Assembly: GCA_903930435.1 (NCBI GenBank)
Contig: CAIYYN010000073.1
Coordinates: 1-64,000 of the forward strand
From: an uncultured Hyphomicrobiales bacterium
GTDB taxonomy: Bacteria; Pseudomonadota; Alphaproteobacteria; Rhizobiales; Ancalomicrobiaceae
DNA: 64,000 nucleotides
Reading direction: 5' to 3'
In this document: positions 20,437 to 23,151 of the stretch, in pieces
How the letters are laid out: each line of letters begins with the position of its first letter
Numbering within the stretch: position 1 is the first letter of the stretch
Translations under genes and position numbers: made by a program
The notes under the pieces: generated by a model
Seen by the model: only the letters and a program-made list of their open reading frames with translations
Told to the model about the DNA's origin: nothing
Databases searched by the model: none

Positions 20437-21126
20437 TCAGACCTGATCCTCAAGCAAGGCCTTGCGGGCCGGCGACCAGAACTGCCGTTGAGTGAGAACG
20501 GCGACAATCAAAGTCGAGGTGGCAAAAAACACGACCGGACCAAGGAACCAGCCCAGATACCCAATCGAGAAGAACAGCGACCGCAAGCCCCAGTGAAAAT
20601 GGTGCCCGGCGTGGATCTGCATCTCGGAGGCCCGATCGATGGCCCGACGGATCAGGGCCGGATCCTCTTTTTGCGATGGAATGGCACCAATCAGGATGGC
20701 AGCGTAGTTATAAAGCCGGTACGCCCATCCGAATTTGAAGAAAGCGTAGCCATAAACAGCCGCAAGTCCGAGCACCTTTATATCCAGAACCTGTTTGCTT
20801 GCAGCCAGATGCAGCAGCGGCAGCTCGCTGAAGATCGCCACGACACGGTCTGACTGATTGAGCAGGGTCAGAGAACCACCGAGCGCCAGAAGCGACGTCG
20901 ATGCAAAAAAGGCCGTGCCACTCTGCAAACTCGCCATGATGGCGGAATCAACCATCCGCGTGTCACGCGTCAGCATCCCCTGCATCCATCGGCGACGATT
21001 GTCGTCCATCAGGCGCGACAACGAACCGCGATGCCAGCGGCTATAGTCCGTCAGCCAGCCGAAAACCGACCAGGCGACGAGATACCAGACCAGCGCGAGC
21101 ACATCCAAGGGCGTAAAATCACTCAT
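20437..21126 (-). CDS. DUF599 membrane protein
   Basis: A 229-residue integral membrane protein of family DUF599, found in alphaproteobacteria and plants with unknown function. Start at 21126 (MSDFTPLDVLALVWYLVAW) is the first ATG; the frame continues six codons to a TTG. Four hydrophobic regions are visible: residues about 7-24, 70-90, 118-140 and 182-215. The N-terminal motif WLTDYSRWHRGSLSRLMDDNRRRWMQGML (from about residue 24) and the later HAGHHFHWGLRSLFFSIGYLGWFLGP are typical family signatures, the latter histidine-rich near residue 175. Nothing in the neighbourhood reveals a role; it is divergent from the MFS gene with a 117-base gap. Confidence 0.82.
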   Translation of the reverse strand: MSDFTPLDVLALVWYLVAWSVFGWLTDYSRWHRGSLSRLMDDNRRRWMQGMLTRDTRMVDSAIMASLQSGTAFFASTSLLALGGSLTLLNQSDRVVAIFSELPLLHLAASKQVLDIKVLGLAAVYGYAFFKFGWAYRLYNYAAILIGAIPSQKEDPALIRRAIDRASEMQIHAGHHFHWGLRSLFFSIGYLGWFLGPVVFFATSTLIVAVLTQRQFWSPARKALLEDQV

Positions 21127-21242
21127 GGTATCTTTTTGCAGCAAACGACGAAAAAGAAAAGTGGCAGCTCACGTGTACGGTGCTTCGGCGCAAGTCTGCC
21201 CTGCATCTCGAATGGCTGCTGAAAGCGGACCAAAGCGTGAGT

Positions 21243-22526
21243 ATGGTCCAAGATCCGCGCGACCGAATCGCATCCGGTTCTAAAACTGCGTCCCTACCCT
21301 CACCGGGCAATTGGAGCTTGAGGCCTTTGTCCGACCATGAGTTGGCAGAAGATCATAATTCTCGACTGATCGCCGGTCGTCGGCTGTCACCGTTTGGTGC
21401 CATGCTGACGCAATTCTTCGGCTTCGGGATTGCCGCAGGCCTCTGGGCAGGCTCAGTGCCATTCGTCGCCAATCAAGCCAAAATGACGACACTGGACATC
21501 GGTCGCGCCTTCACGTTGTTTACAGCGGGTTACATCGTTGCGATGACGCTTGGCGGTGGAGCGATGCGATTGGCCTCACCACGGGCCGTGATGCTGATGG
21601 CCCTTCCGGTGAATGCTCTGGCAATGGCGGGATTGCTGCTGAGCACCTCGACGCTCCAGGTCACGATTTGCCTGGCAGCGGTCGGCCTGATCATGGGGCT
21701 GATCGATCTCGTCATGAATACCGAAGGGACTTTCGTTGAAAAGGACATGCGGCGGCCCATTCTCGTCAGGCTGCATTGTTTCGCCTCTCTGGGAACAGGC
21801 ATTGGAGCCATTGCGGGCAGCGCCTTTGCGCTAACAATCGGTCTGTTCGCATCGGTGGCGCTGTCAACCCTCGCCCTGACTATCGGATTCATCGCGATCC
21901 ATCGTGCGACACCGGAACGGATGCGGCTTTCGGGCACCAAGGGTGGCCTTTGGGCGGCCTACTCGCCATCGCTGATGATCCTCGGCATCATCTTCGGGAT
22001 CGGGGCTGCCGGGGAGACATCGGCTTCCATCTGGTCGGCGCGACTGCTTTCGGAGCAGGCTCCATCTTTGGCTGCCATCTCCGGGATCGGCGTCTCCTTT
22101 TTCGCGGGCTGTCAGGTCCTGATGCGGTTCTTTGGGGATCGACTCCGCCAGACATTCAGTGACGCCACTCTTGTTGCCGTATCCCTCGGCTTTGCGACGA
22201 TCGGATTTTCAGTCGTCGGCATGTCGGATGGGTTTGCCGCGAGTGTCATCGGCTTCGCCTTCGTTGGGCTTGGAACGGCACTGCAGGTGCCGTGCATCTT
22301 CTCCATTGCCGCGCGTCTGAACCCACAAAATGGCGGCTCAGCACTTTCACTGGTCGCGCTGATCGCCGGATTACCGCGACTTGCCGCCCCCTGGGCTTTC
22401 GGTGAAGTGGCAAGCCACACCACGACGGGAATCGCGTTCGATCTGATCGCCGGCGCATTCATCATCGCCGTTTGTCTCGCCATTATCGTCCGGTGGCGGT
22501 TCGAGGCTCTGGCGACTTCCGCATGA
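21243..22526 (+). CDS. MFS transporter
   Basis: A protein of about 427 residues from the major facilitator superfamily with around 12 hydrophobic segments. The first clear helix begins at LTQFFGFGIAAGLWAGSVPF; family-type loops include GGGAMRLASPRAV between helices 2 and 3 and FFGDRLRQTFSDAT between the two halves. It resembles the MFS group of sugar or small-molecule exporters of the FucP/YbjJ-like type (bacterial proteins often annotated simply as MFS), but no substrate can be read. The start is uncertain: the frame opens at 21180, the ATG at 21243 is used here, and ATG at 21402 sits right at the first helix. The region before 21320 looks like non-coding intergenic sequence, so a later start is likely. 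Confidence 0.75.
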   Translation: MVQDPRDRIASGSKTASLPSPGNWSLRPLSDHELAEDHNSRLIAGRRLSPFGAMLTQFFGFGIAAGLWAGSVPFVANQAKMTTLDIGRAFTLFTAGYIVAMTLGGGAMRLASPRAVMLMALPVNALAMAGLLLSTSTLQVTICLAAVGLIMGLIDLVMNTEGTFVEKDMRRPILVRLHCFASLGTGIGAIAGSAFALTIGLFASVALSTLALTIGFIAIHRATPERMRLSGTKGGLWAAYSPSLMILGIIFGIGAAGETSASIWSARLLSEQAPSLAAISGIGVSFFAGCQVLMRFFGDRLRQTFSDATLVAVSLGFATIGFSVVGMSDGFAASVIGFAFVGLGTALQVPCIFSIAARLNPQNGGSALSLVALIAGLPRLAAPWAFGEVASHTTTGIAFDLIAGAFIIAVCLAIIVRWRFEALATSA

Positions 22527-22599
22527 TGTCACAAAACGGACGTCGCGGCGCGATACTGGCTAACGGATGAATTTCATCACCATTGCCGCAGGAGTTATC

Positions 22600-23151
22600 A
22601 TGAAGTCCTTTGTTTATGCCGTGCTCGCTATGCTAAGCCTGATGCTCGCAGTTCCTGTTTCGGCGAAGGCGGGGGATCCAGTGAAGATTATGTTTGTCGA
22701 TACTGGCAACACAGGTCGGAGCATTACCGCCGAGACTATCGCGCGCATTCACGTAGCAGCGACACATAAGGCTGCTCTCTTCATCTCGCGCGGTCTTGAT
22801 GCCGATCCCTTCGAAACCAGCGTCGAAATGAACTTCCAGATCCTCTGGTCACAGCGCGGCATCAATCTTTCAGCGCATCGAGCAGAACTGATGACGGCAC
22901 AAGACGTCAAAAAATCAGACCTCATTCTGACAATGACCGGCAAGCACAAGACTCGCATCATCGAAGCGCACCCCGATGCTGCCTACAAGACCTTCACGCT
23001 GGTCGAATACGCCAATGGCGGAAGCGATGAAATTGAAGACGCCTATGGCAAGCCGCTTGAATTCTACCAGAAGACACTGGGAGCACTCGACGGATTGGTC
23101 CCGCAGGCCGTGGACAAGGCAATCGCCCAAGGTGCGCCCAAGAAGCCCTGA
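22600..23151 (+). CDS. Exported LMW-phosphatase-like protein lacking the catalytic Cys
   Basis: A 183-residue protein with a signal peptide (MKSFVYAVLAMLSLMLAVPVSA) and a low-molecular-weight tyrosine-phosphatase/arsenate-reductase fold. The P-loop aligns as FVDTGNTGRSITAE: the expected C-x5-R-S/T active site has Asp34 in place of the nucleophilic cysteine and Gly39 in place of the second cysteine, while Arg40 and Ser41 remain. The general-acid motif DP(F/Y)G is DAYG at 147-150. Cys-dependent phosphatase or arsenate reductase activity is therefore not expected. Export is also unusual, since the family is cytoplasmic. The start at 22600 has a CAGGAG ribosome site; 22567 would spoil the signal peptide. 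The P-loop codons were read directly (GTC GAT ACT). It could be a phosphate or anion binder, a scaffold, or an enzyme of another kind. Confidence 0.85.
   Translation: MKSFVYAVLAMLSLMLAVPVSAKAGDPVKIMFVDTGNTGRSITAETIARIHVAATHKAALFISRGLDADPFETSVEMNFQILWSQRGINLSAHRAELMTAQDVKKSDLILTMTGKHKTRIIEAHPDAAYKTFTLVEYANGGSDEIEDAYGKPLEFYQKTLGALDGLVPQAVDKAIAQGAPKKP

Follow-up and report, generated by a model that had tools for sequence, protein, structure and literature searches.

We describe bacterial proteins of the low-molecular-weight (LMW) phosphatase fold that carry an aspartate in place of the catalytic cysteine and that, judged by their sequences, are a selected, accessory, cysteine-free subfamily with predicted export. 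The member analyzed here is encoded within a 64,000-nucleotide stretch of DNA (the window) from an uncultured Hyphomicrobiales bacterium. The cysteine is taken to define the PTP P-loop enzymes; with a conserved natural family that has Asp instead, it can be asked by experiment if a carboxylate can serve in the P-loop and if an oxidizing environment favors it. Domain-based annotation as an "arginine phosphatase" or "tyrosine phosphatase" can mask a chemical change of this size. The Cys-to-Asp exchange itself is not new, because natural eukaryotic pseudophosphatase domains are known. What appears to be undescribed is a stand-alone bacterial LMW branch that is exported, has no cysteine, and shows exchanges both ways on its tree; our literature search, incomplete in its coverage, returned neither the motif nor exported LMW phosphatases.

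Reading frame, fold, and active site of the window protein

The gene and the features within it are as follows.

22600..23151, + strand: whole gene, encoding a protein of LMW-phosphatase fold with predicted export and Asp at the nucleophile site (183 residues plus stop)
22590..22594, + strand: ribosome-binding site AGGAG, five bases 5' of the ATG, as read from the sequence
22600..22671, + strand: predicted signal peptide, residues 1-24 (by a rule on hydrophobicity and charge; shared by homologues)
22693..22722, + strand: P-loop FVDTGNTGRS, residues 32-41 (no variation among 37 nonredundant Asp-type homologues)
22699..22701, + strand: codon GAT for Asp34, replacing the catalytic cysteine (sequence and homologue alignment)
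22714..22716, + strand: codon GGT for Gly39, replacing the second P-loop cysteine (sequence and homologue alignment)
22717..22719, + strand: Arg40, the phosphate-binding arginine of the P-loop (invariant in 63/63 Asp-type and 19/19 Cys-type proteins)
23038..23049, + strand: acid loop D147-A-Y-G, with Asp147 at the general-acid position (invariant in 63/63 and 19/19)

The reading frame is open, and its GC3 is about that of its neighbors. An alternative in-frame ATG at 22567, which would add 11 residues ahead of the signal peptide, is not a likely start. The protein begins with MKSFVYAVLAMLSLMLAVPVSAKA, followed by GDPVKIMFVDTGNTGRS, and cleavage probably falls near VSA-KA or AKA-GD. A preliminary description of this DNA had reported the signal peptide, the P-loop with its altered codons, the retained Arg40-Ser41 pair, and the acid loop, all of which we find in the open reading frame at 22600-23151, Ser41 standing next to Arg40.

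The assignment to the LMW phosphatase fold is supported by sequence and structure prediction alike. The Pfam LMWPc profile (PF01451) matches at 2.2e-17 and scores 64 bits where the cut-off is 23.2, and an AlphaFold2 model built from a 50-sequence alignment reached a pLDDT of 96.9 and a pTM of 0.92. This model matches solved LMWPc members with Z scores of 20-25, the best being YwlE arginine phosphatases (4kk4, Z 25.0, rmsd 1.4 over 150 residues) together with 4egs (35% identity), whereas tyrosine-type LMW phosphatases rank after them at Z about 20-22. A sequence profile search against the PDB placed YwlE at 2e-36 and the next family at 1e-17. The window protein most resembles arginine phosphatases of the YwlE type and is related to the exported Cys-bearing proteins described below. 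Both the P-loop arginine and the general-acid aspartate of the LMW-PTP superfamily are present, and the predicted export departs from the cytoplasmic location usual in that superfamily. Because Asp34 replaces the catalytic cysteine of the C-x5-R-S signature, in the window protein as in 62 homologues, the protein belongs to the fold family yet is not a Cys-dependent phosphatase; as in pseudophosphatases, a catalytic residue has been lost, here Cys to Asp.

Three other assignments were considered and rejected. An aspartic-protease reading of "DTG" is ruled out by the LMW-PTP fold; a thioredoxin-linked arsenate reductase ArsC would need cysteines for its relay, of which there are none, and the NCBIfam scores of 19-20 bits fall short of the 174-bit cut-off; and a HAD-superfamily phosphatase is contradicted by both the motif, D-T-G-N-T and not DxDx[TV], and the LMW-PTP fold of the model. 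The source genome encodes one other LMWPc protein (L100, G000:C48:6164-6547), which keeps the catalytic Cys in the P-loop FACSMNAVRS and shows no export signal.

Homologues, export signals, and gene neighborhood

To place the window protein within its family, we scanned 84,980 species, one genome each, and retained 80 of the 92 relatives identified. The final set of 82 sequences comprises 79 relatives extended to full frames, the window protein, L016, and L017; a cytoplasmic archaeal Cys-type protein (L096) was left out. The nucleophile site holds Asp in 63 sequences (window included), Cys in 19, and a third residue in none. The scan pattern FV[DC]TGNTG is blind to other residues at this site, and a second pattern that excludes the site, [IL]LTMT[GD]KH, again returned D or C only; some uncommon third residue is not excluded. 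Because the codons are GAC or GAT for Asp and TGC or TGT for Cys, each exchange amounts to two base changes.

The cysteine at the nucleophile site is not the only one missing. Cysteines are absent from the mature domain in 63/63 Asp-type proteins, as compared with two or three in sampled cytoplasmic relatives, exactly one in the exported Cys type of Enterobacterales and Orbaceae, and three in that of Legionellales. Among 37 Asp-type proteins that are mutually <80% identical (pairwise identity 50% on average, 31% at minimum), residues 32-41, R64, P70, E76, D147, A148, and Y156 never vary, so that Asn37, Arg40, and Asp147 are invariant despite identity down to 31%. Ser63 and His93, which we take to be P-loop support residues by comparison with human LMW-PTP, show one variation each in the same 37 proteins. 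Thr38 is present in 82/82 sequences, whereas the cytoplasmic outgroup mostly has Ile (CLGNI), and residue 148 is Ala in 63/63 Asp-type proteins versus Pro in 14/19 of the Cys type.

An N-terminal hydrophobic export segment precedes the domain in 61 of the 63 Asp members, 57 of which also pass a stricter rule requiring a net positive charge as well as a cleavage motif; the two without it are L083 and L085. This pairing goes beyond coincidence: dozens of homologues, at 31-54% identity, have both the signal peptide and the Asp/Gly pair. The preliminary description had proposed export, a claim that would fail for an N-terminus neither cleaved nor exported, and had named as the mark of decay, as opposed to a new subfamily, a single mutated copy among homologues that all keep Cys. 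Asp is instead conserved in 62 homologues, and predicted export goes with it in the 61 of 63, so that neither objection applies at the level of sequence. A sister branch is exported with the catalytic Cys kept, yet has Gly at the second P-loop Cys site; export, therefore, does not require Asp. The route of export may differ between members, because several starts are twin-arginine-like (L028, L059, L061, L062, L064, L065, L068, L070, L071, and L077, from Caulobacterales, Phenylobacterium among them, and from Acetobacteraceae), whereas the window protein is Sec-like. In a Comamonadaceae MAG (L085:1531-3704), the stop of a tetratricopeptide-repeat gene and the start of the Asp-type gene, which has no signal peptide, share four bases.

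Hosts of the Asp type are scattered through the alpha-, beta-, and gamma-proteobacteria, including Xanthobacter, Aquabacter, Phenylobacterium, Acetobacteraceae, Burkholderia, Paraburkholderia, Aquitalea, Polaromonas, Pseudomonas brassicacearum, and P. fluorescens, with one Acidobacteriaceae genome in addition; the Cys type occurs chiefly in Enterobacterales, Gilliamella, and Legionellales. The gene is accessory and sporadic. An even draw of 398 Pseudomonadota genomes holds no close member, since the next best match is 4e-24 as against 1e-62 for the window protein, and the gene is absent from all 14 related genomes examined, two of the same genus and twelve of the same family, and is therefore dispensable. 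A plasmid tblastn search found two proteins with a signal peptide, one from Burkholderia arboris (49% identity, FVDTGNTGRS) and one from a Klebsiella plasmid (42% identity, FVCTGNTGRS). The former sits on a 3.5-Mb replicon, the latter is of the Cys type, and phages yielded distant matches only, which leads us to reject a phage or plasmid gene. On the Klebsiella sp. PL-2018 plasmid pmk1 (L017:5935-7623), the exported Cys-type gene is followed on the same strand by histidine phosphatase family and peptide deformylase genes.

The immediate neighbors at about 45 loci share no common family and offer no hint of function, gene calling being rough in the GC-rich loci; three Xan_ur_permease and three GGDEF genes are too few, or belong to too common a family, to count. 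The genome was also searched for a McsB-like arginine kinase, with a control that matched nowhere. Upstream in the window (20437-22526) lie a DUF599-like gene and an MFS gene that also adjoin in the same-genus genome G001 (L144). In G001 the MFS gene leads to holB instead, so the region has undergone rearrangement or gene gain; tmk there has a different neighbor.

Cys/Asp exchanges and possible functions

In a tree rooted on cytoplasmic LMW phosphatases, the exported proteins cluster, and the Asp members form one group enclosing two Cys members. With the nucleophile column masked, three changes are needed, most simply one Cys-to-Asp change and two putative returns to Cys, and an undivided Asp clade is rejected (AU p = 9.5e-5). 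The first return is an exported protein of a Rhizobiales genome (L069), the placement of which was not resolved in the first tree; the second, from an Acetobacteraceae MAG (L093:5997-6465), has Cys again but has lost the signal peptide; its R64 is altered, it has gained a further Cys, and it may be on a divergent course. For these reasons, the single returns are less secure than the overall rejection. That Cys returns lie inside the Asp group suggests that the other active-site machinery stayed usable.

The reading we prefer, to which we give not quite an even chance, is a phosphohydrolase of the periplasm, proof against oxidation, in which Asp34 stands in for the thiolate. Once the protein is exported, Arg40 would hold the phosphate of a periplasmic substrate in the P-loop. 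The Asp34 carboxylate, which would retain the negative charge of the thiolate, could either attack phosphorus, giving a transient acyl-phosphate, or position a water molecule, with Asp147 serving as proton donor and then as proton acceptor. Such a trade of Cys for Asp would yield a slower enzyme, but one immune to oxidation. Because Thr38 is invariant, as in YwlE, a phosphoarginine-like or other small phospho-group substrate is possible. Against this reading, two Asp members have no export signal, and, by analogy with other phosphatases, Asp at the nucleophile position might be expected to leave the protein deficient in catalysis (PMC3172300).

The same analogy favors an exported pseudophosphatase, in which the P-loop would bind a phosphopeptide or small phospho-ligand without turnover as a sensor, trap, or envelope partner, and which we consider a substantial possibility if clearly short of even. 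An Asp in the PTP loop, including the cited C215D variant, permits substrate binding but is deficient in catalysis, and PTP99A D2, a natural Asp-bearing domain, is inactive, its other catalytic motifs having decayed and a restored Cys having brought no revival (PMC3172300). Tensin, too, is classed as a Cys-to-Asp pseudophosphatase (PMC8269279). Mere binding would need no general acid, however, yet Asp147 is invariant in 63/63 proteins; the catalytic motifs that decayed in PTP99A D2 are intact here, and the Cys returns are hard to square with a pure binder. We prefer the phosphohydrolase over the pseudoenzyme mainly because the general acid was never lost and because of the apparent Cys returns. 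Of the secreted pseudo-enzyme proposed in the preliminary description, the loss of the nucleophile stands. Inactivity is conjectural: the retention of Asp147, the arginine, and the support residues, together with the returns to Cys, agrees no less well with surviving chemistry than with a loss of activity.

A periplasmic binder of free phosphate, arsenate, or sulfate, in which Asp34 and Asp147 would accept hydrogen bonds from the protonated anion, appears improbable. Periplasmic phosphate-binding proteins use an aspartate in a comparable way, the protein is stand-alone with predicted export and an intact P-loop, and an MFS transporter gene precedes the window gene 73 bases away on the same strand. 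No transporter or ars/pst gene recurs beside the homologues, however, and the same-genus genome G001 has the MFS gene without the phosphatase-fold gene. Decay or local mutation to a functionless copy, which the absence from related genomes could be taken to favor, is hardly credible, given that neither the Asp motif nor the catalytic residues vary among hosts from many genera and several classes, that the window copy keeps its frame, ribosome site, and neighbor-like GC3, and that decay of a single copy is excluded by the 62 Asp homologues in many separate hosts.

Comparison with known phosphatases

The closest known structures, the YwlE-type proteins (PDB 4kk3, 4kk4, and 4pic) and 4egs, share the fold (Z 23-25, rmsd 1.3-1.7) along with Thr38, the arginine, and the general-acid Asp; the YwlE P-loop, CTGNT, has the same Thr, not Ile, at position 38. 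Unlike YwlE, the window family is without any cysteine, is predicted to be exported, and has DA rather than DP in the acid loop. In YwlE, the two active-site cysteines form a disulfide that inactivates the enzyme (PMC6429109), a redox switch that is absent here, where the two positions are Asp34 and Gly39. The top structural match is YwlE C7S, the title of which gives a phosphorylated serine at the nucleophile position, so an oxygen nucleophile can be phosphorylated in the YwlE pocket.

The exported Cys-type relatives of Enterobacterales, Gilliamella, and Legionellales belong to the same exported tree group and share the GNTGRS loop and the export signal, but they keep the catalytic Cys and mostly have DP in the acid loop; they are annotated as "low molecular weight protein arginine phosphatase" (e.g., WP_217076887.1). 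HAD-superfamily phosphatases use an Asp nucleophile and an Asp general acid, as proposed for the window protein. Their fold and motifs are different and they depend on Mg2+, making this a likeness of chemistry only, not of membership.

TpbA of Pseudomonas aeruginosa is a functional periplasmic Cys-dependent tyrosine phosphatase with a signal peptide (PMC2691606). It shares the signal peptide and the periplasmic location with the window protein, for which both are predicted, but it is not an LMW phosphatase, has its signature at position 132, and depends on Cys. Since TpbA works and Cys-type relatives are exported too, the Cys-to-Asp exchange is not dictated by export alone, a point against the phosphohydrolase reading.

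The nearest parallels to the exchange itself are PTP1B C215D and PTP99A D2, in which Asp likewise replaces the catalytic Cys of a P-loop phosphatase. Both belong to another PTP fold class and are neither bacterial nor exported; moreover, PTP1B C215D is artificial, and PTP99A D2 is a regulatory second domain with further motifs decayed. PTP1B C215D, the work of Romsicki in 2003, reportedly has weak residual activity with an acidic optimum, is insensitive to oxidation, and involves Asp215 directly. We suggest, tentatively and with rather more doubt than confidence, that the window protein belongs to a natural P-loop phosphatase lineage that swapped Cys for a catalytic Asp while in exported form and later reverted, and that it may be a working, carboxylate-based counterpart of PTP1B C215D that is proof against oxidation.
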